From contig NC_089316.1 of the NCBI RefSeq assembly GCF_036669915.1, forward strand, positions 3,782,771 through 3,846,770: a stretch of 64,000 nucleotides of DNA, given 5' to 3'. Positions 7,260 to 64,000 of the stretch are shown here, in pieces. The notes below the pieces were generated by a model, which was not told the origin of the DNA, made no database searches, and worked only from the letters and a program-made list of their open reading frames with translations. This DNA comes from Pocillopora verrucosa (taxonomy: Eukaryota; Cnidaria; Anthozoa; Scleractinia; Pocilloporidae). Position numbers and translations under genes: made by a program. Within the stretch, counting starts at the first letter, position 1. Each line of letters starts with the position of its first letter.

Positions 7260-8610
7260 GCCTGATCTTAGAATCAAACGCTTGAAGTATACTTTGCAAG
7301 AGTCAATGACGTTTTGGGGCACGAGCGCTATGATGCGTAACTTATGTAACTCCAAAAAATACGTCAGTAAACTACATCCTGGTAGCAGGATCTACGCGGA
7401 ACGTTTCGAAAACAAGTGAGGTGAAAAATTATATTATCTTTGCCTTAATGCTTGTCATATCTGTGCAGAATCATCAAATAACTTTACAAAAGAAAATAAT
7501 AAATTGTTTTTGAACAATTTAAATTTTCAGAAGCAGTGGATTGTTCATCTGAAGTGTTGATCATCTTCCGCTGCAACGCGAGATTGATCAAGATTTTAAG
7601 AATAAAAACAACTTGTACTTTAAACTGAGAGTCGCCAAATTGCGTTTCTATACTTCATTCCCATTTTCTTGCGTCATGCAGCATAAAATAAACGGTAAAA
7701 TAAACGTAAAAGTGTTGTCTAACTGGAAAATGAACCCCAATGCTTAGTGACAAGATTTTGTTTGCATAAATTTTGTTTTTATTGTTTTGGTTTTCCTATT
7801 GTATTATAGATCACTAGACTAAATGGACTTCTCGGTTTGATGAAGTTTAAGAAGACCCACAAAAAACTCCTTCGTTGGTTTCTGGTCAAGACTTGGAATC
7901 GACTTAAGAATCAAAGACCTAAGAATCGACTTAAGAATCAAAGACTTTAAATCGAACTTTTGGTTTAAGATGCAAGCATCAGTTTAATTCCGGACTCGGA
8001 GGAAACGTAGATAAAAACCCTGAATTAGTTAGTGCCATGAAAACCTGTGCCAAACAAATCAATTTGCCATTGAGTGTCGAAAGTAAAATGAAACTGTGGA
8101 GTATTTTGCTTTACTTAGCTCGTGATTGGTTCATAAAATTCGCGCCACGCCAGCAGCCAATCGGAATCAAAGCTAAACATAATCACGATTGGTCAATTGT
8201 CTTTCTCCCACGCTTATGAAAGTTTCCTTGTTTTTTATTGAATTCTCTGTGGCTTCTTGTGAGGAACCCCCGTGGTTTGATGTGCGTTTGTAATTATTTC
8301 AGATTTCGTTTAGAAATGCCTCTCTCGTAAACGAGATTTTATCCTTGAAAAAGTAATTGACGATACGAAAACTGCAAAAAAAGTAACACAAAGACCACTG
8401 AAATAGTTTTTAAAACTTGCGGTCAGGGGAGTGTTGACAAATTTTGCTTCACGCCTTCAAACAAAACTTGTTGTAACACAGGAAGCCTCAAGTGCAAGAT
8501 GCTCATTTTCATCATTTTAAATCAAAGCTACTCCGTACAACAACAAAGCTACGTATTAATTGTAGAGAACGCACGGAAATTCATTTTCAACCTCCATTAG
8601 GTCAAGGTTA

Positions 8611-10989: not shown

Positions 10990-11978
10990 GTTCCCCCTTT
11001 ATTCATTTGTCGTTTTTCAGTTCAGAAAATAACATCTGCATGTTGCTGTTGTTGATAATAAGGAAGAGAGGAAACACATGTCGGTAAAAACTCTTTCCCA
11101 AGATAATCCTGATTTCTTTGTTGATAAACACCTAACATGGATAACTTTAATTAAATGGAGCTTGATCGACGAAGAAAAGAAAAATAAAAGCTTTGATATA
11201 TTGAACTAAGGACTGTGGACTCATTGGCCACGTCGACTATAAATTATCTTTAACACGTTTTTATATGAAGGGAAGTTTTCGAGGCCCTGGCAGCTTCTAC
11301 CCACGTATTGACGTGAGGAATAAATTAAATTTTGTTCCAAATGCATGTAGACCAAATCTTCTTTCCTATGTGGATAACACGTGCAGAAAAGATTTGTGAA
11401 ACGCAAAACGTGATTCACAAAAAGGCTCGCGAATCGTTTTTGGGGTCGCTGCCTATAATTTCTCTTATACTTTCCAAATACAAAATAATGATAAGAATAA
11501 GAATACTAGTAATGATAATAAAGAAAAAGAAAAGAAAATTCTCAAAACTATGTGAATCTCTAGAACTCGTTTAGAGTCTTTAAGACATTTAGCAGGATAC
11601 TTTGCTTTTCAAATTATATTACAAGTAAATCCATTGCCTAAAGATTTGTCCTCAAATCTTCGCTTGTCATCTCCTCTTTCAGTCATTATACTTTTCTCAT
11701 AAATTGGACAAAAAAAATTAGGTTTAGGTGTTTTTTCTCTTCACTTTTTCGCCGGACGATTCACTGATATGATAAGGAGAAATTCTACGTGCTACTAACA
11801 TGTGGGAGTTTAAGAAAGTGTAACTCAGTTTCCGTTTCATTTGTCTCTCTAAAACATGTCAAGTACTTCATTTGCCCTTATTGTGTAGTGTCTGTTGTTA
11901 TTCCAGGTCCTCCAAGATGTTATTGGAAGAAGCTTCTGAGGATGGTTCATTTGAAGAAATAACTCGTCAGAGTCAAAC

Positions 11979-13037
11979 ATGGTTTTTCACCAAATCGTTG
12001 CAACATTTCACGCTCTTTTCGACGTCATCGGAATTCCAGGCAATTTTTTGGTAATCGTGACGACCGTCCTGGAAAGGAGATTTCATGTGATGCGGTATAT
12101 TTTGCTTGCAAGTCTTGCAGTTTCAGATATTCTCTGTTTGACTCTAGCAAACTCTTTCCGCATCGGAAGCATAGCGCAACAGAGATGGTTGTATGGAGGT
12201 ACAATGTGTTACCTTAATCCTTCATTTGTGCGTTATTTCTACTTCAACTCTGTTCTGCATCTAATGGCTGTTTCTTATGAGCGATACAACGCTATTGTGA
12301 AATCCCCTTTGACTTACGATGGTACGATGACAAAATGCAAAACGATGTTGGTGGCTCTCATCTGGATAGTCCCAATTCCGTTTTCCATCGGTCCGTTCCT
12401 TGGTTTTGGTAATTACGTTTACAACCCCGAAGTGTTCTTTTGCGAGCAAGGATGGTCAGTTCATAGTGATTCCATGGCAAGAAACATCATTTCGTACGCG
12501 ATTTTCAGCTTTCTTTTACCTTTTCTCGTTATTGTTTTTCTTAACTGGAGAGTCTTTCGAACAGCAAAAGCTCTTCAGATAAACCCAGTGGCCAACAACC
12601 TTGGTTGCTTCGACGATTCTGATTGCAAGCGACAACAACAAAACCAACGAAATAAGATCATATTAAGGAAGAAGAGGGAACAGAAAGCCGCTGCCGATGT
12701 CAATATAATCATCATTGCATTTCTCTTATGCTATCTTCCAGGCTGGATTACAGGAATTTTCCGTCAGTTCGTGAAAGACATCAAAGTTACAGCAGAGGTC
12801 ATTCTAACAACAACGGGCGTTTACTTCTTCAGCTCGGTGTGTAACCCAATTATCTATTCCCTTCGTAAAAGAGAATTTCATAAAGGATTCAACGAAGTGG
12901 TGCGCTGTATGACACTTCAAAAAAATTCAAGTATCTTAGACGAGAACGTAAATCCGTTTTCAAGCTTCAGTGTACGAGCAAGAGCTTTCAGTTCAAGAAA
13001 TATTCCTGTTTCAGACTTCTCTGACGGTCAGGATTGA
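11979..13037 (+). CDS. Rhodopsin-like (class A) orphan GPCR, single exon, paralogue
   Basis: Plasma-membrane receptor of 352 residues starting MVFHQIV. Landmarks: GIPGN (helix 1), LASLAVSD (helix 2), TMCYLN Cys (helix 3), SYERYNAIV in the DRY position, FFCEQGW Cys in loop 2, FLLCYLPGW (helix 6), and NPIIY (helix 7). Loop 3 is longer and richer in Gln, Asn and Lys than in the receptor at 5985-7259, and the tail is short. The core aligns with that receptor almost without gaps, including the rare strings NYVYNPEVFFCEQGW and DGTMTKCK, so the pair is a recent inverted duplication. The ligand is unknown; an amine, peptide or lipid cannot be decided by eye. Confidence 0.93.
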   Translation: MVFHQIVATFHALFDVIGIPGNFLVIVTTVLERRFHVMRYILLASLAVSDILCLTLANSFRIGSIAQQRWLYGGTMCYLNPSFVRYFYFNSVLHLMAVSYERYNAIVKSPLTYDGTMTKCKTMLVALIWIVPIPFSIGPFLGFGNYVYNPEVFFCEQGWSVHSDSMARNIISYAIFSFLLPFLVIVFLNWRVFRTAKALQINPVANNLGCFDDSDCKRQQQNQRNKIILRKKREQKAAADVNIIIIAFLLCYLPGWITGIFRQFVKDIKVTAEVILTTTGVYFFSSVCNPIIYSLRKREFHKGFNEVVRCMTLQKNSSILDENVNPFSSFSVRARAFSSRNIPVSDFSDGQD

Positions 13038-14844: not shown

Positions 14845-17800
14845 CTAGTAATCCACCAAGCTACCACTTTTTGATGGACTCATCGAGCGGGAGAATTCTC
14901 TCATGGTTGTGGCCAGCTTCTCAAACTCTTCCCATTTGATGGATTCCAAGCTTCGTTGCATTCGAACTTTGGATTCCATATGCGAGCAGCGCGACTCGGA
15001 GTCTTCAAGTCGCAGTTTGAGGCGCTCCACTTCTTCGTCACGTTCGTCAAGCTAGCATGTGAGAAAAAAAACATTATTGACATGAGTAAATGAAAACAGT
15101 AGACTACGAGACACAAGAATGAATGCTTTATTGCAAAAGAAGAGATTACGGGTATGTTTGGGCAGATCCGCGGTTGAACTGTTGAAAGGTGACATGCCCA
15201 CAAGTGAGTGGTGGCAAATCCGCGAGCGAAAGGTGACATAGCCGCGAGAGGAAGATATAATACGCGCGAGTGAAAGGTGACGAACCCACGAGTGAAAGTT
15301 GATAAACTCAAGAGTGAAAAGTGACATACCCACGAGTAAAAGGGGACACACCTGCGGGTGAAAAGTGGTATACCCGCAAAAGAAAGGTGACATACCCGCC
15401 AGTGAAAGGTGGCGTACCCGCGGGTGAACGGTGACATACTCGCGAGTGAAACGTGGTCTACAAGCGAGTGAAGGGTGACATACCCGCGAGTGAAAGGTGA
15501 CATACTCGTGGGTAAAGATATGGAAAAAGTGGCTGAGTTTAGGTCCCCAAGAAAAATTTCAGCAGCTTTCGCACTAGTATGGCAACCAGGCGGGTAAGAA
15601 TCGATGCTTCAACGCGGATACATGATTCATGCATTAACTTGTTTTGTCGTTATATAGTACCTTTGCGTTTAAGTTCGCTACTTCGTCAGCGAGGAGTAGT
15701 TTATCTCTCTTTAGAGCCACGTTCTCTGAGTTAGTTGAGTCTTGGTGTCCCTCCACTTCGTTTAATTCGTTACGGAGTTGAGTTCGCTTCAAGTTCGCTG
15801 CAAGGAAGAATATCATGAGAGTTAAACCTGTATGCTTTATTAAATAAATTCCTTTTGTCATCTGTTCATTTCTTCTTTTCATTTACATTTTTCATTTAAA
15901 TCGACTTTAACAAAAACCGCGGGTTTAAAATTCATGATTTTTTAAAGCAGTGTTAGAGAGTTTGAATTAAAATATTTACCTTCTAGGGAAGCTTGCTCTT
16001 CTCTTGACAACTTTATAAAACAAAAAGATAGATGAAGAAACGAAAACTCAAATCAATATAAGTCAAAATCGATACAACGAAATTGGTTTACGCCACGAAA
16101 ACATTTTAAGAGTATTAGCGTAAACTGGACACAGAGTCACCTAAAACCTTTGATAGAGCAACTTCGTTGCGCGTCGCAAGTAATCCATTGGTTATGATCT
16201 TTCTTTATTGGCTTTCTGTGATTGCTTTAAAAAACTTCCGCAACCCTCTCAAACAATCACGAGAAAGTTTTCACTCGCATTTCCCGCGCTTCATGAAGTC
16301 TGCATGACACGACTTCTCATTGGCTCGTTGCAGTGTTTTCCCTCTTTTGATTGGTCATGTTGATTCCTTCCGTTTTGATTCCGCGAAAAGCAATCTAAAC
16401 GCGCCATAATTCAAAATACCTTGGCAAGGGTCTCCCTGTGATTTTGCTGTTCAATTTTTAACAGCTCCTTGATTCGTTCAAGCTCATGCTGTAGGTGTTT
16501 CTCGCTTTCTTTCAGAGTCACAAGCTCTTGGATGTTTGCGTGTCGACGAAAATCTTTCTCGTCCTTATGAGCACGATCCTAAAGAGGAAAAAAAAACATT
16601 AAGATTACTATAATTGTTTTCCTTTTTAAACCAAAATTCTGCTGATCACGATCGTTAATGAATTTATCTGTATTGCTCATAACCGGTGAAAAGCGCGGAA
16701 AAGCTACACAATCGCGCGTGATCGGGTGAAAACAACAAAAGGCAAGTAATAACCATTAGTATAAATATACTTATTCGTTTACTTATTCTACAATCTGATT
16801 GGCTACGCCTCTCGCTATCTGTTCCATGATAGATAGTGAGTAAGCGGATAGAATGTGGTGTGACTATTTGTATTGGCGAGAAAGTTCTTTTGATACTCCT
16901 AACCTCATAATAATGTACACGAAAAAATCACACGCTTCTCAGTAGCTGAAAACGAGAGCATTCTCATGCAACACGATTGCAAAGTTGTAACATGAGTTCA
17001 AATTACAAATAGTGCGCGTATGCTTTCAAAACTTCGACTGTCTTGATTCTCTTTGATGTTTTTTCATGAACGTTAACTAACAAGTAATGACATGATTTCT
17101 CTTGTAATTTGGTGTAATAAGCACTTGTAAATTTTTCAGAGTACAAATTGCACCTGCCCTAAGGGCTCGTGCAGTTTTGTTGTTTTTGAAAAATTTACTC
17201 GTGCTTATGAACTCCAAACTACACTCGTAATCAAGTTATCCCCTATACAGACAACGCTTTTAACACAATCACTCAAAAAAAAATTTGAAAATCTGGGACT
17301 TACCATGTCTATTTGTTTTCTAAGTTCTACGACCTGAGCAGATATAGCAGCATTTTCTTTGATTAATGCCGTGCAATCATCCTGGATCTTAAAAAAAACC
17401 GTATTGTCAAAGAACTATTCCATAGCGATACAATTATGGATAAACAAAATAACTATTATCATGGTATGGAAACTGGGTAATAATGAATAACACCTTAAAA
17501 TTTTACTTTACTTGGGTGAACAAATACTACAGAGGCCACTGAACAAGCTAAAGGTGAGCGAAGATGGTTGCAACAGGCAAAACTTTTCAGGCTCGCAAAT
17601 CGAGCCCGGCTCTTGCAAAAGGTAATTTTTAAAAAATCTTTACCTTGTTTCTCAAGCTTCTGTCCTGTTCAGCATTTATTTCTTTTTCTTTTAATTGTAG
17701 TCTTAATTGGCGTATCTCTTCCTGCAAAATAACAGAGTAAACTCAATTTGCACAATCCTTGACAGTGCAATTCATGTAGTAACAGTAGTCTGTCCTCACC

Positions 17801-23370: not shown

Positions 23371-26061
23371 ATGAATAACAATCCTGTGAAGCATGAAATT
23401 GCTCTCATCAATGGAGTGGCGACGAGAATATCCAGTGCGATGTCTACAGAAGAAAATATTTGCATCGTTGTGATCCCTGGTAACCCAGGTGGTATTGGTT
23501 TTTACGATATTTTTATCTCAACAATATTTCAAGCGGGAAAAGGAAAATATTCCGTTTACGGTGTTTCGCATGCAGGTAGGAGTCAAACAACAATTTACAA
23601 ACAATGCTACAACGAAAATGATGCTTGAAAGGCCTTGGGCAAATCGAATAAGCGAGAATGTTTTGATCGATCTCAATGGTTTTGTTTATAATAGTTTTTC
23701 TCAAATTATTCTATAACCTTCGAATCATCAACCAAAAATGATAAAGCTGTTCCTCCTTGGCAAAATCTTTTTAGATTTCACTTCAATCCACTTTCTGCGA
23801 CGGCGTAGTCCACTCTGTAACCGTCGATATACACTTATATGTGAGTCAAATACGGCCATCTGCTGTAAACTCAAATCTGAGGGAAAAATCCATTTAAAAA
23901 TAAAAAGCCACAACACGCGAACAGCTCCCGTCGCCACCTCCTAAATGAAACTTTCCTTATTTACTTCACAAAAAACTGAAAAATTGATATGCGTCTTTAA
24001 AAATATGTGATAGAAACGTGAAAACTTTCTGAGAGCGCACGATATATCGTTAAGAAGTTTAATGGATTTGTTTTATATTTTGCGTCAGATGTCACTTGCA
24101 ATTACACGAATTGATTTTAACTGATATAAGTGCCATGAAAACGACAACCTCATCAATGTTGTATTATAGGTAAATAACAGAATTATCTCTACAGTTTTGT
24201 TTCTCGTTGTATATTTTGAGCCTGGATAATATCTTGAATATAAAGGCTGCTATTGTGAGTGAAAGATTCAAATTTAGAACCAGTTTATGATTTATTTCGT
24301 TATTTCTTAATTGGTGGAGGCGCAAAAACGAATGAAAGATTTAAGATTTCTCGTTCGACGACAATTTATGTCCATTTCATCGTTGTATGATGACACTGAA
24401 AATGGTGGGGATGATATTCGACTTTTTTTATCACCGCAAAAAACTGGATGACGGTATCAAAAAAATTAGTTCGGAAGAGTGTAAATTTAAAGATGGAATT
24501 GTCCTTCGAAACAGACGGAATTGCTTGATAATTCATCAAATGATGTCAAAGTATACACAGATTTCATATTAATTACACTGTGAAAGCTTAGGTATATGCA
24601 TATTCCGACAAAACAGGAATTTCTTATATACACATTAAACTGTCATATAAGTATCTTCGTGTCGATATCCGTCGGTAGAACTCATGGGTGATCTAGGAAT
24701 TATTATTGTAAACACAGAACTCAACGACAAGAATTCCTGCTACCAATCAATAATTACCATTACAATTTTCGAAAAAACAAATACATCTAGAAAAATGTCT
24801 CCTATGGAGACAATGTCTAAAGTTAAAATATTCCTCCATTTTGGAAATTCTCCAGTTTTTCCTTGGATAAGTGGTTGTCGCTATGGTTATTTTGATCAAT
24901 TCTGTTATTGGTGAATTTAGCTGGGTGGACTTAATATGATCGGCTGCTTCAACTGCACGATTATAACTCTTTAAAATAATTAATGAAAAATAAAGCAGTC
25001 AGTGCACCAATCACCAAATGAGGAAATTGCAATGTTATGATTGGTCCAGAACACTTGTGCCACTTTCGTAACCAATCAGATGCCAAGCTAATACCGATCA
25101 CGACTTGATTGCTAGCGTTTTCCCGCGCTTTAACACAATTTCTTTGTTTTAACATCGAGTTCTCATTGGCTCTTTGGGGTTCTTTCCATTCTTTTGATTG
25201 GCCGTTGTACGTGATTACTTTAGTTTTGGTTTTACGACACTCGTTCGAAAAGCGTTGAGAGTAAACACGAGTCCATTGTGTATACATTTCTTTTCAGGCC
25301 ATGCGCCAGTGGATGAACCGACCGGACCATGCAGATGGAAAAGCAAACAATGGGATCAGCCTGATTTGCCATCGTCTTTCTCACTCACAGACCAAATCGA
25401 GCACAAACTGGCCTTCTTGGCTTACTACATCCCTGCACACTGCAGAGTCATTCTGATTGGCCATTCGATCGGGGCGTACATTGCTCTGGAAATGCTGAAG
25501 CGATATCACAACAAGGATAAAATCCTGAAATGCGTCCTTCTATTTCCAACAATTGAGCAAGTGGATTCTGCACCTAGTGGGAAAATGTGGAAATTTATCT
25601 GCCACTATCTACATTGGCCTTTCCTTATGGGAACAGTTTTGGTGTCTTTTTTACCCTCCTTTCTTCAAAGGTGGTCCATTAACTGGTGGATGTACTTGAA
25701 CAAGGTTGAAAACAAAGAGTCTATCATGGAAGCGGCGCAATCCATGCTGAATTATCGTACAGTTGATAACGTTTTGGAGATTGGCCGCCAGCTCGTTACG
25801 ATACGTGAATTAGACAATGATTGCATACGCGCCAATCTGGACAAACTAGTTTTTTTCTACGGGCTCGGCGATCCCTGGGTTCCACAGAATTATTATGAGG
25901 CTATGAAAGAAAGGTTCCCGGATGGTGACATCAAACTGTCACGGGATAAAGACATCAGGCATGCTTTCGTGTTGGATACGTCGGAAAAAGTGGCCAAAAT
26001 GGTGTGGGAATGGATTGAAGAATATCTAAGAGATCTGGAAGAAGCTGAGAGTATTTGTTGA
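23371..26061 (+). CDS. LDAH: Lipid droplet-associated hydrolase, copy 1
   Basis: Alpha/beta-hydrolase of the LDAH (C2orf43) family; human LDAH sits on lipid droplets and affects neutral-lipid turnover. Coding exons 23371-23575 and 25298-26061 join in phase 1 to give 322 residues (human 325). Visible: VVIPGNPGGIGFY near residue 35, SHAGHAP at the exon junction, ILIGHSIG with nucleophile Ser125, YGLGDPWVP with Asp260, and RHAFVL with His290, a complete Ser-Asp-His triad at family positions. A hydrophobic stretch around residues 170-190 matches the membrane-embedding part of the family. I prefer the start at 23371 because the following VKHEIALINGVAT aligns with the family N-terminus; an in-frame ATG 84 bases upstream would add 28 unrelated residues. 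It lacks the last intron present in the paralogue at 49447-51775. Confidence 0.94.
24985..25245. repeat. Dispersed repeat family D in the LDAH copy 1 intron
   Basis: Contains tatgattggtc, aaccaatcag, ttttcccgcgctttaac, gttctcattggctc and cttttgattggcc in the same order as the copy at 16170-16400. It ends about 50 bases before the acceptor of the second coding exon. Confidence 0.6.
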
Positions 26062-34037: not shown

Positions 34038-37000
34038 ATGTTTTGTGCAAGGCGAGCTGTTCGAATATTTGGTCGCAGAGGGCGTTCTGTGGCTTTGCGA
34101 TCAACTCTTTGTGAGTTACATTCACAGGTACAGCGAAGAACAGTGTTAGTTTGGTCCACGAGGTGAGAAATGTCTTGATCTATTGTATAGCAATTTCGAC
34201 CCACTACGGACAGAATGTAAAATGGTACTTTGTTTTTGATTACATGATCTCTATTGCTTCAATGTGATGGAATTTAGCTACCGAGATTTTATTGCCCTAG
34301 CATTTGGGCAATGAAAAAAGAAGGAGAAGAAAAGAATGTCTGATCTAACCTATATCACAATTTAAGAGTAAGATTTCAAGCCGCCGATATTCTTCGGAGA
34401 TCACCGGATCGGTCATTACATCTGTTTCAGACAGTTCATATTACAATTTTATTTTCAGAGATGTGCCACGCTTCAGACACGTGCTCTCCACTAGTCTACC
34501 AAAATGTGGCTTTCGCTGGTTCAGCTCAGAGGGTAAGCTTTCGCAAAGATTAATTACCTGATAAAATTCACGCACTTCATCAAATTTGCATTTTATTACT
34601 GGTGCAATAAACAAACGGAAGGGAATGTGTTCTAGTCCCAATTTCGTTTTGATCATACACTCAACAACTTCCTTCCCCTCTCTCAAAGAACTGAAACAGC
34701 CTCAAGGAGAGGGGATTCAGTTAAACTCTTACTTTGGCCGGCAGTTGAAAGTTCTTGAGTCTGTTAGAGTCTGATTGTTCCTTAAGTGTTTACGTTACCC
34801 ATGCCTACCTATTATGTAACATCTGTTGGTCTTGTATCAGATCATAAGTGGAGGGCTGTTATTGGAAACTGGTTCTTGTGATAACTTTGTTTGATATGTG
34901 AACTCCCCTTGATCCTAATTTTAGTGATGATAAGAAGTAGAGAAAAAACACATCTTGGAATGTTTTCTAAAAACTTTCCTAATCTTGATTGTAAAAGAAG
35001 ATTCCCAAAATGAACCCCCCTTGATCCCAATTTGATGAGATGGAGATGTTGAGAAAAACATCTTTTTTTGGCTTAACCTTCCAACTCTTGATTCTGAAAG
35101 ATGATTCCTAAGGTAAACCTTCCATATCCCCAAAAATCCTCAGCTTCATATACAAAAAATAATTATGATAAAAATCTCAGTGACCCTCATAAACAGTCCA
35201 GGTTTATGACTATGCGTAACAGACATTTGTATTTCTGCACTTCTGTCCCACATCCTATGCTTATGATTCCAGTTTTACACCCTTCTCCCTCTTTCTTCTG
35301 TAGGTCTACCCCCTCACACAAAAGTAAAACTACCAGCTTTGTCACCAACAATGGAAATGGGAACCATTGTGAGCTGGGACAAGCAGGAAGGTGATGAACT
35401 TAGTGAAGGAGATCTGCTAGCACAGATTGAAACAGACAAGGCCACAATGGAATTTGAAACCCCCGAGGAAGGCTTCCTTGCCAAGATTTTAATTCCTGCT
35501 GGTTCCAAAGATGTTCCTATTGGTAAACTTTTGTGTATTATTGTTGAAAAGAAAGAAGATGTTGCAGCATTTGAGTCTTTTGTGCCTGAAGAGACAGCTG
35601 CACCATCTGCAGTAAGTGAATGTAGCCTTTGCATGATACCCCTCTATATTTCTCCCTTCATTTTCCCTCCCATTTCCACTTTGCTTCCTTCCTTCCCCTC
35701 CTTCCAGTCCCCTGCCATAGAGTCTTTTCCTTTGACATTCAAAACTGCCTTCAACTGACTGTAGACTACAAAGTGTTGTGCTAGAGGTACATGTGAAATA
35801 GGAAAATAAAAGAATCAATCTTACATCAAGAAGAAACAAGGATGGCTAAAAGTATTAAAAGTGATTGAAAGGATGAAATCAAAAAATTGAAATCAAATTT
35901 TTCCAGTCGTAGAAACCCTATACAGCTCTGTAAGGGTCTCACAAGCACTGCAGATTTCCCTTCCTTTTAAGTAAAACACTGAATGAGTTTAGAGAAAGAT
36001 GTTTTTCGTCTTGTCACGAGTGTGGGACAAAGAAAAAATTCTGAGTCCTTATGAGGAAACAAACCTCTGACCTTCGGATTCCACACTCCGATATTCTACC
36101 ACTGAGCCACAGAGACTCTATGGCAAGCAAGGTCTATTATGAAGTTCATAAGTATTAAGAAGTTCATATGAACCCTATTCCTAGCAGTTTAGACATTTAA
36201 GTTTCCACCATGGCCAGGAGATTGTGTTGTGTTCTTAACTTGAAGTAAGTTAATTAACCCTCACAGTAGATCTCTCTAACCTGGGCAAAAAAGGAGTCAA
36301 ACAAAACTGTCAGGAAAACCTGACAAAATGCTAAGGGATAACCTTAACCAGCATTTCATCTATAAATAAACTCCAAGGAAGTTTATTTCATTTGGATTTA
36401 TGTTTACCTACTTTTTTTTTCTTGTAGGAGAAGCCTGCAGAACCAGCAGCTGCTGCTGCTCCTCCCCCACCCCCAGCACCATCTCCCCCACCCCCTCCTC
36501 AGCCTGTGACTCTTGCCCCTCCCTCTCCCCCAGTGGCTGCACCAGGTGGTAGAGTATTTGCCAGTCCTCTGGCAAGAAAGATGGCTCAGGAGAAAGGCAT
36601 AGAATTAAGTGTAAGTAATACTGTGAGATCAGTGGACATATTTTATGTTGAATAGACATTTATGAGTGATGAATGACTGAGTATTTAATGTCACAAAACT
36701 GAAGTCAAATTTTTCATGACAACCAATCTGAAAAAAGTGAAAATTAAGAGGAGCTAATTAGAACTTACTATGAATACCTGTTAAACATTTGTGTGGCTAA
36801 AATGGAAGAAAGGGCATATAGTATCTTCCATTTTGATCCATTAAATATTTTTGCTGAAGTGCAGTTGGTCTAAAGGCATCACATGGCTGAATATTCCCCA
36901 GCTAAAACTGCATCATATTATTGGGGGTTGAGAAGGTGGCACAGATTTGCAGACTAAATTACAAATTTTGTTTAAGTGTACTTTTTGCTGATGATTCTTG

Positions 37001-40000: not shown

Positions 40001-41739
40001 GACTGTAATAGTCCTCTTTCCAGAGACTTAATAGTCCGTGATGAATTTTCTTCAGGGCTTACAAGAGATAAACGCTGATGTAACTACTTTAGCCCACAAA
40101 GCCAGAGATAACAAACTTCAACCTCATGAGTTCCAGGGAGGCACAATTACAGTGTCTAATCTTGGGATGTACGGTGTTAAGAACTTTTCCGCCATTATCA
40201 ACCCCCCTCAGGTAAGTGATTTTATTTCGTATTGGTGCTGCTATCTCAATTCGAATTGTCTGCAAGCACGAAGCTCCTTTCGATTGAGTGTTGTGAAACC
40301 AAATCCAAATTAATTAAAACGGCCAATCAAAAGAAAGGGAAAATACCTTTAAGAGCCAATGAGAATACGAAAGATAAACAATTCAACTGTCTAAAGCGCG
40401 GGAAAACGCGGTTGACCAAGTCATGATTGGTTTGGGTTTTGCATCTGATCGGTTTAGAGAGTGGCGCGAATTTTCTGGAACAATCGCCGAGCGAGGTAAA
40501 GAAAGACCCATGCAATCCCAGATTATCGCGGATTACTTTGGACACAATTGCTGTATTTGACGAGTTTGAACAAAACATCGTGATTTGGCAGGTAGTCCAA
40601 TCTGACAATGTGCAATAATTTACGATAAAAAAAGTTCAGTAGTTGTCGTATTCTTCGATTTTTAAATTTGTTTTTCTTGATTATTTTTGGGAAATTAGGC
40701 TCTTACAGTTTGAAGACGTGATCAGCCATTTTTCATGGACGAGCGCTGACACATCTACGCATGAGCAGAATATCCTAAACTTGTAGTGATGGGGTTGAAG
40801 GTGATATTAACTTTATCCCTCACACTGATTCTTAACATTTACTTTCTGTATTTTCTCAGGCCTGCATTTTAGCTGTTGGAAAGGCAGAAAAACAGGTCGT
40901 TGTGGACGAAAATAGCGAAAAGGGGTAAATTATGTTGTGGCAGTTGTTGTTGTTTTTGTTGTTGTTATGTTATCGATGCGTAATTCGTTACCTAATTCTG
41001 AGAAAGCGGTTGCTCGCAGTAGCAAATTTTTCTCGAAATTCTGCCCCCCGTCTTCTTTTCCTTACTTATCTCAGTCTTCCTTCCGAGAATTATTCGCCGT
41101 CTGGTTGGAAGATCTAAAACTTTGATCAGTTTACTGAAGTATTCAGGCAAACAGCGAGCATTTTATATGATAGAATTATACCGTGAAAGCGAACAACAAA
41201 TATTCACCAGAGATTTAATTTTGTTGTCATCGTGTAACGCATCTCGCAAACGATCACAACATTTTGTTCATGATGAAGAAAATCGGACATTTTCATTTGA
41301 TTTTACAGCATTAACCCTTTACGTTATGCATATTCTCCATACTGTTCTCTATACATTTCCAAAGGTGCCATAAGGAGAATTTGTTTAACAATCAAGAGTT
41401 TCTTTAACTGGTGATCATTTCCGTTTTTCTCGTGACCTCAATATTTGATTCAAGGATGATGTCGTCAGAAGAAATTAGATGGTAGTAACTCTTAGGGATT
41501 AAAGGGTTAACCGCTGAAAGACAAATAGCGAAAGCTCAAGTCCTGGCCCTTGAATTCTACGCTAAGTCACTTAAATTCTTTTTCTTTTTACTTTCACTTT
41601 TAAAAACAGCTACACAACTGGAACAATGATGTCTGTCACTTTGAGCTGCGATCACCGAGTTGTTGACGGCGCTGTTGGAGCGCAATGGCTGTCAGCTTTT
41701 AAAAGCTATTTAGAGAAACCTCTTACAATGTTGTTGTGA
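34038..41739 (+). CDS. DLAT: Dihydrolipoamide acetyltransferase, E2 of the pyruvate dehydrogenase complex
   Basis: Mitochondrial E2 core: transfers the acetyl group from E1 via lipoyl-lysine to CoA. Exons: 34038-34162, 34459-34532, 35304-35611, 36428-36610, 37013-37115, 38096-38136, 38224-38309, 38832-38969, 39125-39206, 40056-40211, 40860-40924, 41610-41739; 496 residues, all in phase. Residues 1 to about 65 are Arg/Ser-rich with no acidic run at the start ([16 protein letters not shown]), a matrix-targeting peptide. One lipoyl domain follows ([14 protein letters not shown] with lipoyl Lys112), then an Ala/Pro linker, the E1/E3-binding domain ([15 protein letters not shown], then GSGPGGRV), and the catalytic domain from about 272 with DHRVVDG (His469, Asp473). 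Vertebrate DLAT has two lipoyl domains. It is E2 rather than PDHX because the catalytic HxxxDG is intact. A polyadenylation signal is at 42407-42412. Confidence 0.96.
36006..36122 (-). mobile_element. tRNA-derived SINE, copy 1
   Basis: On the minus strand the sequence has an A-box-like tggctcagtggtaga, an anticodon-arm-like tcgga/tccga stem, and a B-box-like ggtttgtttcc, followed by ctcagaattttttctttgtc and a tail cacactcgtgacaagacg. It lacks proper acceptor pairing and the normal anticodon loop length, so it is a tRNA-like SINE head and not a working tRNA gene. It lies in a DLAT intron. Confidence 0.75.
37268..37402 (-). mobile_element. tRNA-derived SINE, copy 2, truncated
   Basis: Matches the SINE at 36006-36122 over tgtcattagtgggacacaaa, gaaaagtatctgagt and gtggaatcagaagctctgta in the same orientation, but is interrupted by a poly-C run (37330-37343) and stops where the large palindrome begins. 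Confidence 0.6.
37403..37590. mobile_element. Large near-perfect palindrome (fold-back element)
   Basis: Two arms of about 87 bases (37403-37490 and 37504-37590) are inverted copies with few mismatches around a 13-base centre: aaatgtaaaatggtttccgt left, acggaaaccattttacattt right, and aggttgggagaacac against the matching gttctcccaacct. It would form a long hairpin in DNA or in the DLAT pre-mRNA. No coding content. Confidence 0.88.
40285..40600. repeat. Dispersed repeat family D, reverse orientation, in a DLAT intron
   Basis: Contains cggccaatcaaaag, gagccaatgagaa, aaagcgcgggaaaacgcg and catgattggt, the reverse-complement order of the copy at 24985-25245. Confidence 0.6.
41311..41510. mobile_element. 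MITE-like element, family A, copy 4 (complete)
   Basis: 200 bases with near-perfect ends ttaaccctttacg and gggattaaagggttaa. It is reversed relative to copy 1: atattctccatactgttctc, then ggagaatttgtttaacaatc. Last DLAT intron. Confidence 0.82.
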
Positions 41740-49446: not shown

Positions 49447-51775
49447 ATGGCGGCCGCCAACGATTGCCCGGAACCGGGTAAACTCTATAAGGAGGTCATC
49501 ACTCTTGATGGTGTGCGGACGGTTTTATCGAAAATCTTACCACAGAGGAAAATTCACAAGCACGTGATTGTGGTAATTCCTGGAAATCCTGGATTGATAG
49601 AATTCTATGATGATTTTGTTACGTCATTGTTTGACGCGCTTCAAGGGCAGTTGCCGGTGTTTGGAATTTCTCATACCGGTTGGTAGACACCTCAGCCTTG
49701 AATATATTTTATCAGTGAAATTATGTTTTCCATTTTTTTTTTACAAGCAAATGCAAATTATTTCACGTGATCCAAAACTGGGGCAAGGTCAAGTACCAAG
49801 ACACTTTCTGTTGTTAATGGGACTTTCCAAGAAAGAATCGCGTGCTTCTGAAATTTGATTATTGAGAATTTCATGTCTGAGAAATGAAGGGTGGTGTATT
49901 CTTCCAATTTTTATGTTAAAGGCTTTTTGGGCCAAACCTGCATTTCATCAGGAACTATGGACCTACAGTGGCTGTGATTATGAGACGATGTGTTTGTCAA
50001 TATTAGATTATGAGCTCGAGATTTCTATCGCGTGACAAAGGCAAAGTTCGATGAACTGTCACGCACAGTTATCACGCACAGATATTGATACCGATCATTC
50101 CAGTTGTTTTCAATGACATTGTTCTTTCTTTCAAAACTCAATGAGTAAACAGTGTCAATGTTGAATAATATAAGAGTACAATGGTTCAAGCTGACTCTCT
50201 ACTCAGTAGCCATTCAAAATTAGAGTGCCTGCCTCAGTGGGAGAGAACGTGTCAAGTCTGAACACAAGTCTCATGACTTGCATCTGCAAAACTCATTCTG
50301 GTTTTATTTGCAAAAAGTGATATGGAGTACTGTTCCATCCCCTGGTTAGAACGCCTGTCAAAGGCAAGAGAACATCCACCCCTCCATCCTCCCCCTAGTG
50401 TTCTTATAGCAACTGATCAGTTTTCCAGTACCCATTTACACTCTTGGGTGGGGAGGGGTGAGGTAAGAGTAAAGTGTCTTGCCCAGGAACATGTGAAAAT
50501 GACCCAGCCAGGTCTCAAGCTTAGACTTATTGACCACAAGAGTCCTGTGTGCATTCAATCATAGGGCTCCTTCATCATTGACAGAGAAAATATGAGTAAG
50601 TGAATAAACAAACAAACAAAAACTAAATAAACAAGTCATATCCCAATTTTATCACAAGGCTTTCTCTTTTTTCAGGTCATTCTCCCATAGATTGCTATCC
50701 AGCGTGTCCAGGGAAAAACTGCTCTGCTGAACAAAGCTATGCTGCTGAGTCATACAGATTTCCATTGAGCCTCGAGGAACAAATCCTACAGAAAAATTTA
50801 TTCTTGGAGAAGCATATTGCACCACATTCTAAAATAATACTGATTGGACACTCAATGGGAGCTTATGTTATACTAAATCTACTAAAAGATTGTGAAAGAT
50901 TATCAGATATCTCCAAAGCTATTCTGTTGTTCCCAACAGTGGAACGAATGGCAATATCTCCAAATGGCAGATTTGTGACACCCTCAGTGATGTATTTGAG
51001 GTGGATAGGAATATTGGCAGCTGCTGCATTCTCATTTTTACCTCAAGTTGTGAAGAAATGGTGTGTTCAATGGTGGTTTAGTGACAGAAAGGGACTAATG
51101 CCTAGTGTTGTTGATACTGTGATCAAATTCCTTACCTATCAACCAATGGATTGTTCCTCTAGAATGGCACAGGAAGAAATGACAGATGTAGTTCACCGTG
51201 ATGATGAGGTGGGTAGTATATAAAATGAAGTGAACCCTTTAATGCTAAAGAATGACAAGCATCTATTTCTGCTTGTAATATCACCCCTGAAAAAAAACTT
51301 GATTAAGATCACAAGAATAAACTAAGGGAATGATCAGTAACTGAAGTGGCTCTTGATTGTTAAACAAATTCTCCTCATAAACACCTTTGGAAATGTATGG
51401 AAAACAGTATGGAGAATCTGCATACTGATCTTAGGGTGAGAAGAGTTAACAGGACATTATAAAAATGCTGTTCATACAACTTTTCTTTGAATGATCACCC
51501 ACCCAATAGCCGTACACCAACTATTATTCAGTTATGATGACAATTTTGTGTGTTTTGATACTTAGGTAATTGAAACAAATTTGGAGAAACTGATCTTCTA
51601 CTATGGAACAACTGATAAGTGGGTCCCAGTCTCCTACTATGAGGACATGAAAGCGAGGTTTCCCAGAGGGGAAATATATTTATGTAAAAGGAAGTTTGAT
51701 CATGCATTTGTACTTGAATCATCAAAGGAAGTCGCTGAAATGGTTGCTTCTTGGATACAAAAGGTGGCTGCTTGA
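49447..51775 (+). CDS. LDAH: Lipid droplet-associated hydrolase, copy 2
   Basis: LDAH-family alpha/beta-hydrolase of 324 residues from exons 49447-49678, 50676-51208 and 51566-51775. Landmarks: VVIPGNPGLIEFY, SHTGHSP across the first junction, LIGHSMG with Ser137, YYGTTDKWVP with Asp272, and FDHAFVL with His301, so the catalytic triad is complete and close to human numbering. It is closer to human LDAH than copy 1 in the LLFPTVERMAISPNGR region. Compared with copy 1 it has an extra intron after RDDE, and a longer linker with four Cys (DCYPACPGKNC) after the first strand. The start ATG overlaps a YY1-type motif. A polyadenylation signal is at 51988-51993. A retroposon-like stretch lies in intron 1 at about 50330-50600. 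Confidence 0.95.
50330..50600. repeat. Retroposon-like remnant in the LDAH copy 2 intron
   Basis: The string aaagtgtcttgcccaggaac, then gccaggtctcaagc, resembles a block common in invertebrate SINE-type retroposons. Ends are not clear. Confidence 0.35.
51231..51450. mobile_element. MITE-like element, family A, copy 7
   Basis: gaaccctttaatgctaaaga, then gctcttgattgttaaacaaa, ttctcctcataaacaccttt, and a gggtgagaagagttaac end. It fills most of the last LDAH copy 2 intron. Confidence 0.75.
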
Positions 51776-54700: not shown

Positions 54701-55259
54701 TTCAAAACTCGCAGAAAAAAATGCCCAAAAAGGGTTCCCTGCCGCGAAGTTTTGTTTTGAAATTCCGCAAAAATAATAATAAAAAAACTCCAACTAATTT
54801 GTGTTTCAGTCACCAGCATTTTCTTTAAGAGGGACTACAATTAAAACTCTCTTAAGATGACAGGTGCAATCACCGCTGATGTAACACTAATTTCTCCTAT
54901 CTAACATTGTTTGAAATGGGTTTTGATCAGTGGGGAGAGTTAATCTTTCGAGCTTGCGTTGAAGGCGTGCGTCACGTGCCAGTGAAATGGGAGCGGGAAT
55001 CTCTGTAAGTATTCCCTTAATATCAAGCATTGTTCTCTTGCAGAGAAAAGCGTCGTTTGACTTGGCTTTCAGTACAAACACAGCTGTCGTGGAACCATAA
55101 TGAGGTGAATATGTGTCTCCGGGAGCTGTCATGTTAAATCCACTTCTATTCTGAATCGATTTAATTTTCGGCAGAAAAACATTTTATTCTAGAGCGAGCG
55201 AGATTTTCTTCAATTTCCTGAAACAAACCCCAAGAAGTAACCCATTTTATGGCAGCAAC
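51776..55259. other. Intergenic region between LDAH copy 2 and the peptide-receptor GPCR
   Basis: No gene that I can support. It contains the LDAH polyadenylation signal (51988-51993) and a worn family B-like stretch around 51795-51940. Two open frames, 53415-53669 (+) and 54887-55132 (-), are discussed among the rejected items. Confidence 0.5.
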
Positions 55260-56297
55260 ATGTCAATCAACGAAACTACTGTGTACCCAATTCCTGACTT
55301 CAAAAAGTATTCCGTCGAAATTGTGGATATTATTTTTGCCGTGCTTTATGGTTTCGTCATGTTTATTGGACTCATTGGAAATTGTTTAGTTATGGCTGTG
55401 GTGTACCGGACCAGATCCATGCATACAACCACAAATTTTCTCCTCGTAAACATGGCTGTCAGCGATGTTATCACTCTGTTGTGGTGTCCAAGGACTTATA
55501 GCTTCGCCTTTTACCCGATTCATCCCACAGGGATCCTTGGTGACTACATCTGCAAGATTTTCACAGGCAACGCAATTATAAGTGTCGCGATCGCCAGTTC
55601 AGTTCTTACGCTTACGATTCTTGCTACGGAAAGATACCATGCGCTAATGAAACCAATGCAGTCAGAATTACGCCTCACCAGGGAACGTGTTAAATACGTT
55701 CTCACTTTTGTTTGGGTCGCTGCGATCTTAACAAGCCTTCCAGACTTTTCTCAGAACAAGTACAGTGAGAGATATGGACGGTGTGTTTGCCCTTTTAGCT
55801 TACAGATCGCCTACTCGCTGAGGGTTCATGTTGTTTGCACTGTTATATTCTTGGGATGTGTACCCTTTCTTATTCTTGCGTACTGTTATTTTCAAATAAT
55901 TCGCGGACTGTTTTTCAAGAACACCATTTGTTCGAGCGCGCCTTCTGGAAGCAGTGATCACCAGACGAAGAAAAGACTGGCTAAGTTACTAATTGGCGTC
56001 ACGGCAGCCTTTTATATCTGTTATTTGCCTTATGGTGTTTTCATCATGTACATCGCTTTACAAGATCGAGAAAAACTAGTTGCCAATGAAGAAACCCTTG
56101 CTATGTTATTGCGAGTGTTCGAATTCCTCGTCACTTCTAGTTCATGTCTAAACCCAGTACTCTACGCCTTTCGTAGTTCAAATTACTGGGAGGGTTTTAA
56201 GAAGATTTTTACAAAGCGCAATGCAATTCAGGCAAAGAGAATATTGTCCACCGTATATAAGCAAACTCCGGAGCCTGTTTTGTCCGCAGTGCTATAG
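55260..56297 (+). CDS. Class A GPCR of neuropeptide-receptor type, single exon
   Basis: Plasma-membrane receptor of 345 residues. The short extracellular N-terminus has an N-glycosylation sequon (NETT, residues 4-7). Landmarks: GLIGN (helix 1), NMAVSDVITLLWCP (helix 2), CKIF Cys at the top of helix 3, TERYHALMKP in the DRY position, a Cys pair in loop 2 (GRCVCPF), LLIGVTAAFYICYLPYGVF in helix 6, and SSCLNPVLYAFRS in helix 7. The WCP motif and NPVLYAF resemble peptide receptors (NPFF, QRFP, galanin or tachykinin-like). It is unrelated at close range to the pair at 5985-13037. The peptide ligand cannot be inferred. The start is the only ATG in frame at the N-terminal end; an ATG 11 bases upstream is out of frame. 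Confidence 0.93.
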   Translation: MSINETTVYPIPDFKKYSVEIVDIIFAVLYGFVMFIGLIGNCLVMAVVYRTRSMHTTTNFLLVNMAVSDVITLLWCPRTYSFAFYPIHPTGILGDYICKIFTGNAIISVAIASSVLTLTILATERYHALMKPMQSELRLTRERVKYVLTFVWVAAILTSLPDFSQNKYSERYGRCVCPFSLQIAYSLRVHVVCTVIFLGCVPFLILAYCYFQIIRGLFFKNTICSSAPSGSSDHQTKKRLAKLLIGVTAAFYICYLPYGVFIMYIALQDREKLVANEETLAMLLRVFEFLVTSSSCLNPVLYAFRSSNYWEGFKKIFTKRNAIQAKRILSTVYKQTPEPVLSAVL

Positions 56298-60136: not shown

Positions 60137-60345
60137 AACCATTTAACTTCAATGATCTCATTAGAAATTCTCCTTACTGTCTGCCATATAGTTCTTGTGA
60201 TGTTAGTTTGGAGAATTTGATATTGGTTCAACCAATAATCCCCTAATTGATAGTTTTCTTTATTCTCATCCCTTTTTGCTTGATATTGTATTGATATTGT
60301 AAGGAGAAATTCTGTCTTGGTCACTCATGGGAGTTAAGGGGTTAA
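60137..60345. mobile_element. MITE-like element, family B, copy 3
   Basis: Left end aaccatttaacttcaatgat and right end gggagttaaggggttaa; the interior shares ttggttcaaccaat, tttctttattctcatc and gatattgtaaggagaaattc with the copies at 3413-3604 and 20740-20936. Confidence 0.75.
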
Positions 60346-60516
60346 ATATTTATCTAGTAGATAGCGTTTTCCAACCATCGAAAAACCGGGAACTGATTGG
60401 CTCTAAGAGGTATTTTCCTTTCTTCTGATAAGCGGTTGTTCTTACTTTGGTTTTAGTTTTTATAACACTTTAAATTGATTATTGGTCAAGAAGGACATTT
60501 GATACTCACCTACTCC

Positions 60517-61817
60517 TCATCTGAAGAACGGTTCCCCGATACCTGTATCCCCGTATTTCTTGTATTTTCCGTACTTCCGATAATATCCGGGAGATCCACC
60601 ATTGTCCGAGTCAGAGTTGGAGTCGGAGCCGGAGTCAGAGTCGGAGTCAGAACCACCCTTACCCTTCCGGTAATAGCGTCGCTTAGGTCCACAGTAACAG
60701 CGCTTTTTGTATGGTTTGTACGGTTTATAAACATGGTGGTGTGGATCCCTGGTGTTAAGAACAAATTATTTATAACCCATGTTTTGACAACCCTGTGGTA
60801 ACCCTGGGGTTACCCCTGGCACTGCCCCTGGGGAACTCTTATTCGAAATAACAAGAACGTCCGCCGGAAATTTCTCGTTAATTAAGTCGTCGATTGAAAC
60901 CGTCTAGGGTGTGGTGTAGCGTTGAACCCCTGTGAGATTCCACTTATTGTTTTAATTAACATTTTTATTCCCTTGCGTGTAAAGAATACGTTAGCAGCTG
61001 GGAACAATAGTGCATTGTCCTGAATTCCCGGCGGGTGAAGTGGGACTTTAAGCAAGACATCGAACATTCCTTCCCTTTCTAGGGGGAACCCTCAGGATTT
61101 CAGGCAGTTTCTTGTCTTTAAATCCACAGTGATTCTCCTAAATCCTTAGCTATTCTTCACCATTTTTAGGTTATATTCTTTTATTCCTTCTCTGTTTCCC
61201 TACGTCCGAATTTTTAAATCGATAACCTTTTCTTAATAGTACACACTTCGTTCTAGCCCTGGAGAATACCTAACATATGTTTGGGCAAACTGTGCAAGAT
61301 TAATTGATAGAGGAAATCCCAAGCCATAATATCAGGGATTTTTTAACATCCCTTTTAGAGTAAAAAGCAATATATTTATATACATCATGAGACTCATTTT
61401 GTGGCGATCCCTTAATTACCTTGCGCAGGTGTTATCAAGCATTGATCCAAGGTGTAGAGCTTTTTGAGTTGGTGGTTGATCGGGTTCTTTTCAAGTTTCA
61501 CAAATATTCGCGTTAAAAATGAACTTTCAAATGAATTCTAACTCACCTTGAGGGATTCTAAGGACAATTTTGGTAGGAATCCAATCGTGAGAAGGAAAAA
61601 TGTAAAACTGTTGAATTGTTGGAGCCTGTTTAACAACCATTTAACCGCACTAAGTCCTGAAAAAAATTGATGCCAAATTCTTACCTGTGTAATTCCATGC
61701 CAAGTTTTTCTAGAAGTGAGGTTCGTCTCATCACATTAGGCTTATCTTCAGCTGAACCTTGAATGAAGTTGACTAAAACTGCTAAACCACGACGGCAAGA
61801 AAAAATCCACGATCCAT
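60517..61817 (-). pseudogene. Small secreted-type Tyr/Lys- and Ser-Asp-rich gene with out-of-frame leader
   Basis: Family not recognised. Two exons: 61685-61817 and 60517-60748, joined AG|G with matching phase. Exon 2 encodes 76 residues after the junction: a His-rich start, Tyr/Lys/Pro repeats (YKPYKPYKKRCYCG), a basic RRYYRKGKGG stretch, about 18 residues alternating Ser and Asp (SDSDSDSGSDSNSDSDN), then a second Tyr/Lys stretch ending at TGA. In exon 1 the ATG at 61817 opens MDRGFFLAVVV and hits a stop, while the frame that joins exon 2 reads a hydrophobic segment (LAVLVNFIQGSA) then a charged propeptide-like stretch. A single missing base near 61783-61785 would explain both. Alternatively an unseen upstream exon splices into the pyrimidine-rich acceptor just there. 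The composition suggests an extracellular or mineral/matrix-binding peptide; that is inference. I type it as pseudogene only because the frame is broken as read. Confidence 0.55.
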
Positions 61818-64000
61818 TTTAACTAAAAAAAATATTCCAAAAATCTCAACCTATGAGCGATCGCACAATCCGGTGTATGATCAATCACTTGATCCTGTAA
61901 TCTAGCTTTTATTTTATAACGGCATGACTTAAAAGGTTCCTGGTCTCAAGAACAATATACATACACAAACAAGTATGTCATCGGTTCTGTTTCAAACCGA
62001 GATTTCTTATGCCCTATGAATTAAATCTCGTTTTAATTTACACGGGCAATACAGCGAGTTAACTAATGCCAATATAACTGTGATTTCTTCCCAAAGTGGA
62101 GACTATATATATCCTAATTGAGGTTTTTTATTTTAAAATCCGTGACAACAGCTCTTAGCGATGAAAGAACGTCGAGCTGAGGTTAAGAAAAATTTGAGAA
62201 CAGAGCTTTATTTTTCATTTAAAAAAAAGGAAACGTTTCCATTCCTCGAAATATAGTTTTGGACTTACAAAGTCTTGAAGAGCTAAATTGAATGCCGGGA
62301 AGCAATTTTGCTAAAAAGAAACTCTAAATGTACCATAAAATCAATAAAGTAATCGTCTTTCAAGAAATGGAAAAATTATGTTTGGAAATCGAAACTGCAG
62401 CGAGCAAGAGCACTTTAGATGAATGAAGTAAAAAGAATGAAAGAAACCATTTAAAAATCCTTTATCGCGTAATATAATAGTTTAATATAATAAATTCCTC
62501 ACAAGTTCTGTTTATTCCTGAGATAGATCGATTTTTGTTTCAAGTTGTAACGGAAATGCCATAATTACTGATAACTTCCATTCAATTATACATTCACTTC
62601 TTCTCTGTAGACTACAAACTCCACCGATTCTACAGCAAGGAGAACGGAGCCATTTACTAGGCTGTTGTGAGGAAAATCTAAATTCAAGATCAGCAGTCTG
62701 GGCATAAAACTCAGCTTGTCACAATTGGAATATGGTGTTATTTATGCGCTTTGTAAGGAGGATGTAACTATAAAAAGAAGTGTGAGACACAATCAAATGA
62801 GGGAGCGATCCTGTAAGCAGTGCTTCCTCTGTTGCTTCCTAACTCATGATGAACAAGGACTTCGCAATTTTTCAGGGGTCTGAGAATAAAGCCATAGAGT
62901 ATGTGCCACTCAATAAGTTGCTAGGTTAGTATTCCTTTCATTTGATCTGCATGTGTCACACGCTTGTTAAAAGATGGACTCCAACCTTTATTGTCTTTCA
63001 ATAAGCCATTGTTGCTCGACCATTTGGTCAAAAAAAATACTTAAGAGGAAACCTTCATGAGATATTGCCTGTTGTATTGAACGGAAGGTTGTGCGAAATT
63101 CAATTTAGGGAAAGAAAAAATGAAAGCTGGGAGGAATGACAATAGTAATTGAGAGATTTCTTCATAGACCGAAATAAACAATACAAAGAAGAACCTTACT
63201 TCAATTTTTACGGATTTTAACCAACCTCGGGCAACTAATATTATTGAACATTTTGTAATCGGGGTTCAGTCGAGGGGATGAGACAACAGTTTAGTATCAA
63301 TGGAAATCAAAAAACAGAGACACTTTATTATTAGGGAACGTACTTTGGGAAAGTATTCTTTTCAAGGATGCTTCATGCCAACAAAATTGTCTGTTCATTT
63401 ACGTTGTTATGCCACCGGCTCAGCGGCTTTCAAAATCAAACGGGCACTCGAAAATTTGCGTTGTTACAGAACGTTTTTCATTTTATTCCAGTCGAATTCA
63501 ATCATGTCATCCGTGCCACTTCGCTTTATTGTTTACCCCCCCTCCTGCACTATTTAATACTTTTCCGCTTAATAAACCAATTCTTTTATGGCAGTTCCTT
63601 AAACGTTTAAGGCAGGACTGGATTTCCCCTCGCAATAATAAAACTGCAATAAAATAACCTGAACTTGCTTCGTTAAACAACCACCGACATAGGTAACGCA
63701 TCAAAAGTTTTTTCGCACGTGGATATCATGATAAAATAATCACCCAGCTAGGAAATCGGAACCATACATTGAAACACTGACAAACAAAAAGTGTTGTAAT
63801 CAAGGTATGCGAAGTAGCTTTCATTTGCATGTTTACGGGACTTGGGTTGTACTCGTAGAGACACCCAACAAATAAGCAGAAGAAAAAAAACCGTGTGTGA
63901 CTAAAACCAACACCTGAATAAAATAATTACAGCTACAAAGAAGAAACCATTTTGTTTACAACATAGGGCTGTTTCACGGGCCCCTTTGATTACCTACACC
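61818..64000. other. Right edge of the window, no gene recognised
   Basis: AT-rich. Three overlapping short frames at 63300-63657 carry no motif. A promoter or leading exon of the Ser-Asp-rich gene may lie here. A short frame at 62848 (MMNKDFAIF) ends in TAG beside a GTTAGT donor-like site and is not convincing alone. Confidence 0.45.

Follow-up and report, generated by a model that had tools for sequence, protein, structure and literature searches.

The minus strand between positions 61817 and 60517 of a 64,000-nucleotide stretch of the Pocillopora verrucosa genome (hereafter the window) holds a short reading frame of unusual composition behind what looks like a broken leader, and it raises the question of whether a gene resides here and, if so, of what kind. 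The explanation that we favor, tentatively and at slightly less than an even chance, is a two-exon gene, small and probably restricted to its lineage, that encodes a secreted, largely disordered block protein and has its leader frame interrupted in this copy. Judged from its sequence, this locus is likely to be a small gene, or the remnant of one, of a generally familiar kind. An earlier sequence-only reading had called it an unrecognised small secreted-type gene; in view of the anatomy, the composition and the split leader this description stood as the best one, and the interpretation attached to it gained partial support.

The putative exon 1 (61685-61817, minus strand) comprises an out-of-frame ATG at 61817, the pieces of a leader and then the frame that matches exon 2, which runs on to EDKPNVMRRTSLLEKLGMELHR. 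The region is covered by a minus-strand open frame, 61818-61685, ending at the donor CACAG/GTAAGA (61684), and this matching frame was the only open one of the six as well as the one with the best codon score (0.075). A putative GT..AG intron of phase 2 (60749-61684, minus strand), proposed from the ranks of its donor and acceptor and from the in-phase join, leads to acceptor 60748, which opens exon 2. The exon 2 frame is open over 60765-60520 on the minus strand and closes with a stop at 60519-60517, so that the putative coding part plus stop (60517-60748, minus strand) supplies 76 residues after the split codon, with a pI of 9.5. Across the junction codon AG/G the joined frame stays open from 61818 to 60520, which confirmed the earlier claim that two exons join in phase, here through the consensus donor 61684 and acceptor 60748.

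Among the GT sites on both strands of the window donor 61684 ranked 13 of 6839, and acceptor 60748 ranked 285 of 7614 AG sites, on approximate splice-site matrices. With introns limited to 60-1500 bases, minimum open runs of 43 and 76 codons and an in-phase junction, the 61684-60748 join was the sole qualifier among the 53 strict site pairs of the window, and in 50 simulated windows one of 1352 pairs qualified at the same strictness, the strict thresholds having been placed post hoc, just under the observed scores. With looser splice sites 28 of 1436 window pairs qualified, two of them from donor 61684 (a count in the window, without simulation), and thus the rarity of the join depends on the site strength chosen. 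Seven bases past the stop of exon 2 lies another strong donor GT (60508-60509, minus strand; GAGTAG/GTGAGT), ranking 14 of 6839; judged by its position, a donor at 60509 is compatible with a possible intron in the 3' UTR. The nearest polyadenylation-like signal past the stop is an AATAAA at 60259-60264 on the same strand.

The sequence-only reading had pointed to an unusual make-up of exon 2, with Tyr/Lys repeats, a CYC pair, a Ser/Asp run and then Tyr/Lys again, and this observation held, the composition lying beyond that of the simulations. Over the 60 residues of the frame where they are densest, Y/K/R/S/D/G made up a fraction of 0.87, compared with 0.57 in the next best frame of the window and a maximum, also of 0.57, in 60 third-order Markov windows. 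Because this null model generates no tandem repeats, the blocks were tested apart. The first basic Tyr/Lys/Arg block, VYKPYKPYKKRCYCGPKRRYYRKGKGG (60652-60732, minus strand), contains 11 K+R and no D/E in 27 residues (pI 10.2); it lies outside the repeat described below, and none of 100 simulated windows matched its Y/K/R count of 17 in 27 (maximum 16). It also includes the CYC pair, which provides the only two cysteines of exon 2. The Ser/Asp run that follows, SDSDSDSGSDSNSDSDN (60601-60651, minus strand), has 6 D in 17 residues and a pI of 4.1, and most of it is underlain by a 6/12-base tandem repeat at 60604-60651. The second Tyr/Lys block, GGSPGYYRKYGKYKKYGDTGIGEPFFR (60520-60600, minus strand), carries 6 K+R and 2 D/E in 27 residues (pI 9.7), and its best 12 residues include 10 Y/K/R, a value matched by 5 of 100 simulated windows. 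The charge alternates along exon 2 from basic (pI 10.2) to acidic (4.1) and back to basic (9.7). Five of the nine serines fit the pattern S-x-x-D/E, which we take to be of the casein kinase 2 type.

Of the competing explanations, the one that survives best, unlikely as we hold it to be, is that there is no gene at all: a short hexanucleotide repeat would sit in stop-poor DNA, and the splice-like sites and the hydrophobic frame would be coincidental. This account draws on the tandem repeat at 60604-60651 and on the fact that three frames are open across exon 2 (two minus, one plus), the two on the minus strand having nearly identical mean codon scores (0.127 for the Ser/Asp frame vs 0.128), so codon usage, with a score trained on 2264 codons from seven reading frames of the window, does not separate them. 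It also draws on the relatives of exon 2 not found in two collections: 0 of 579 pattern stretches were confirmed in prokaryote genome contigs and 0 of 82 in viral contigs, results that say nothing on animals. Against it stand the first basic block, which lies outside the repeat and exceeds all 100 of 100 simulated windows, and the rarity in simulations of an in-phase join at such site strength. The repeat itself also bears on which frame is read. Over the initial 16 codons of the run, the Ser/Asp frame departs from its consensus codons 4 times synonymously and twice non-synonymously (binomial P 0.025 against an expected synonymous fraction of 0.22), whereas each other frame over the same stretch showed 1 synonymous and 6 non-synonymous differences; adding the trailing Asn codon changes the Ser/Asp count to 5 to 4. 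This pattern speaks for the Ser/Asp frame, the coding status of which is likely. An argument from repeat phase was dropped: outside the Ser/Asp run, 11 of 11 near-repeat pairs were in codon phase, compared with about 35% in base-shuffled flanks, but 151 of 300 codon shuffles matched the observed number of near repeats, so their phase merely restates the composition of the frame. Mismatches in these near repeats (12-mers, at most 3 mismatches) fell 7, 6 and 11 times on codon positions 1, 2 and 3, with no clear third-position bias.

The leader region with the broken frame (61782-61817, minus strand) sets the ATG frame beside the frame that joins exon 2. The ATG at 61817, in the context GTTAAA/ATGGA, which is favorable by start-site rules, reads MDRGFFLAVVV, that is 11 codons, before a stop at 61784-61782, and is one frame out relative to exon 2. 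The exon-2-joining frame, bounded on its 5' side by a nearby stop (61821-61819), carries LAVLVNFIQGSAEDKP and holds the hydrophobic stretch LAVLVNFIQGSA, which extends past the leader region. A 7-residue segment with a mean hydropathy of at least 3.0 within the first 12 codons was found for 18 of the 2122 ATGs of the window. Read together, the two hydrophobic pieces, lying side by side, look like a single leader in which the frame breaks somewhere from 61817 to 61782. The earlier description of a leader-like segment in the matching frame with the only ATG one base out was right as to the segment and the frame offset and mistaken as to the "only ATG", since in-frame ATGs occur at 61731 and 61698, both past the hydrophobic segment. 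The broken leader could mean that this copy is dead, that it is a variant allele or that the assembly slipped locally. The four long reading frames found elsewhere in the window that match families (a YTH frame and three 7tm_1 frames) are unbroken, which makes general indel noise in the assembly unlikely; a local assembly slip or a real allele is possible.

It might instead be argued that the gene is unbroken and has its start at another place, either in an upstream leader exon or, without a leader, at ATG 61731 or 61698, and these two in-frame ATGs and the weak acceptors at 61778 and 61757 speak for such a start. We regard this as improbable. A hidden first exon, one of the options raised by the sequence-only reading, was sought from 61860 to 64000 at moderate site thresholds (donor score at least 2, acceptor score at least -2, 20-159 coding bases) and yielded 0 candidates, so that this option lost ground; a start at either internal ATG would lose the leader, because both sit after it, and the hydrophobic pieces that follow 61817 would be left without explanation.

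The two-exon gene with an interrupted leader that we favor found no clear counterpart in the collections covered, namely the window itself, Pfam, solved structures and, for exon 2, the prokaryote and viral contigs. The exon 2 query in the searches for relatives, Pfam families and structures was 60765-60520, which includes 17 bases before the acceptor. Within the window there were no clear paralogues, the best off-target match having an E of 0.56 for exon 2 and 0.11 for exon 1. In Pfam nothing reached the curated cut-off for exon 2 (best 16.7 bits vs a cut-off of 27), and the matching frame of exon 1 gave no match up to E 1. The sub-cut-off matches of exon 2 to IMUP (E 0.013) and AF-4 (E 0.021) fell on the Ser/Asp stretch and were set aside, as was the sole match to a solved structure up to E 10 (E 0.0041), which paired the Ser/Asp stretch with Gly/Ser residues in a construct made of two proteins and reflects low complexity. 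Peptide strings of the protein were not found in a literature search, the coverage of which leaves out most subscription journals, and no protein of such make-up is described in the available portions of a study of the Exaiptasia pedal disc (PMC6626399) or of the Stylophora proteome (PMC7115838). A single-sequence structure model was of low confidence (mean pLDDT 61.9, pTM 0.19) and its one predicted element was a small hairpin spanning residues 61-70; such a prediction fits a chain that is mostly disordered.

Alternating charge and the basic doublets present in both exons would also suit a precursor of cationic peptides with an antimicrobial or signalling role, from which the basic blocks are cleaved out and in which the Ser/Asp run acts as a neutralising spacer. 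In the cnidarian cationic precursors that are known, an acidic part precedes a single basic part, and the disulfide-rich ones carry more cysteines; here, in contrast, the acidic run lies between two basic blocks, exon 2 has just two cysteines, and no family matched at cut-off, all of which renders this reading a poor prospect. The weakest contender, one that the sequence-only reading had not raised, is that exon 2 is real and read in another frame, with the upstream exon A (61547-61656, minus strand; 110 bases, acceptor score 4.5, donor score 8.0) in place of exon 1: its donor at 61546 ranks 5 of 6837, better than donor 61684, its acceptor is at 61656, the reading is open from ATG 61640 to a stop at 60512-60510 and gives an unbroken 110 residues with a Thr-rich middle and no obvious leader, and its exon 2 codon score equals that of the Ser/Asp frame, but with repeat differences of 1 synonymous vs 6 non-synonymous it makes the Ser/Asp composition and codon pattern accidental, and for this reason we judged it the least likely of all. 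From its splice sites, exon A is a possible alternative first exon.

Returning to the interrupted two-exon gene, its intact product would consist of a leader, a short spacer, a basic Tyr/Lys/Arg block with the CYC pair, an acidic Ser/Asp run and a second basic Tyr/Lys block. In such a chain the blocks of opposite charge could condense, either among themselves or together with other molecules of the matrix; the Ser/Asp run, which is probably phosphorylated, could bind calcium or mineral, and the Tyr/Lys blocks could bind surfaces or polymers and be open to cross-linking. With the frame break between 61817 and 61782, the copy as written would not yield a secreted product. The anatomy, the composition, the splice-like sites and the frame break can be read from the sequence itself; transcription, secretion, modification, lineage restriction and function of the gene are what we infer here. 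The most likely role is that of a charge-patterned secreted matrix or adhesive protein, a proposal made because of the composition and by analogy with tubeworm cement, with KRMP-3 and with coral skeletal proteins.

Stony coral skeletons hold secreted Asp-rich proteins (SAARP/CARP), with the SAPs apparently found only in Acropora, according to the accessible part of PMC4890752. The candidate would likewise be secretory and has an acidic stretch, like the SAARP/CARP and SAP proteins as described there, but its acidic run is short and alternates Ser with Asp, and the net character of the exon-2 chain is basic. Acidic skeletal proteins are acidic and high in Asp, with no numeric cut-off given in that part of the source, while the candidate has 8 Asp among its 76 exon-2 residues and a pI of 9.5 and falls outside their definition; where they have a signal peptide, the leader pieces of the candidate are split over two frames. 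In the pearl oyster matrix protein KRMP-3 a basic part alters the growth of CaCO3 and a Gly/Tyr part binds chitin (PMC4498902, as far as its available text goes). The candidate may resemble this combination of a basic, Lys-rich part with a Gly/Tyr part, having a basic Tyr/Lys block and a second block that contains Gly and Tyr, but with the Ser/Asp run between them; KRMP belongs to another phylum and was compared by description.

The cement of sabellariid tubeworms provides a second analogy, in which basic, DOPA-bearing proteins and phosphoserine-rich ones coacervate with magnesium and calcium (PMC12621633, in the part available). The basic Tyr (DOPA) and phosphoserine chemistries of Pc-1, Pc-2 and Pc-3, together with their calcium complexing, are similar to what the candidate would offer; in the cement, as that part presents it, the two chemistries reside on separate proteins, whereas the candidate would have both in one short chain, in which the residues that could be so modified (Tyr and Ser) are present. 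The same text states that FAM20C acts on S-x-E/pS and on polyserine of secreted proteins (PMC12621633). Basic skeletal proteins are also known from octocorals: in the accessible sections of PMC7853314, 9 of 24 octocoral-only proteins have a pI above 9, and red coral skeletons hold strongly alkaline ones. These scleritin-type proteins, basic and lineage-specific components of the skeletal matrix, are likened to the candidate by description. We claim no family membership with SAARP/CARP/SAP, KRMP, cement or octocoral proteins. A bolder version of the analogy, to which we give a small chance, is that the locus encodes a lineage-specific animal protein of the cement or mineral interface that unites both chemistries of tubeworm glue, as Tyr/Lys blocks and a phosphorylatable Ser/Asp run, within a single short chain, and that the leader break marks a protein which this species is losing or which still segregates in it.

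Small, repetitive and fast-evolving secreted proteins are easily overlooked by annotation, and uncharacterised proteins account for about 25-28% of reported coral skeletal proteomes, according to the available portion of PMC7115838. If the gene is transcribed, a block polyampholyte would be added to the candidates for attachment and mineral control, and the leader break would allow a comparison of presence and absence among individuals.

Several other features of the window deserve mention. A short dispersed repeat is present at 60400-60469, just downstream of the candidate gene, and at 40287-40356 and 25169-25233 (74-77% identity over 65-71 bases). A tandem repeat of period 22 with 14.7 copies occupies 15183-15505, within long open frames of the minus strand. 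A tRNA-like sequence at 36044-36116 (minus strand) scored 30.3 bits vs an Rfam gathering score of 29 (E 0.027), and on this similarity it is possibly a tRNA-derived element. The unbroken YTH reading frame spans 493 codons, and its protein matched YTHDF1 entries at E 1.6e-92; among the matches listed, the two entries not named YTHDF (4u8t and 4rcm, which we take to be yeast structures) were at 7e-36 or weaker, a contrast that supports an animal genome as the source. The plus-strand stretches 25198-26061 and 50627-51223 both matched the lipid-droplet hydrolase family PF10230 and form a paralogue pair. The three unbroken rhodopsin-type receptor frames of the 7tm_1 family, 5985-7391 (minus), 11955-13037 (plus) and 55155-56297 (plus), have 468, 360 and 380 codons, respectively, and each covers the whole profile; those at 5985-7391 and 11955-13037 are similar by eye.
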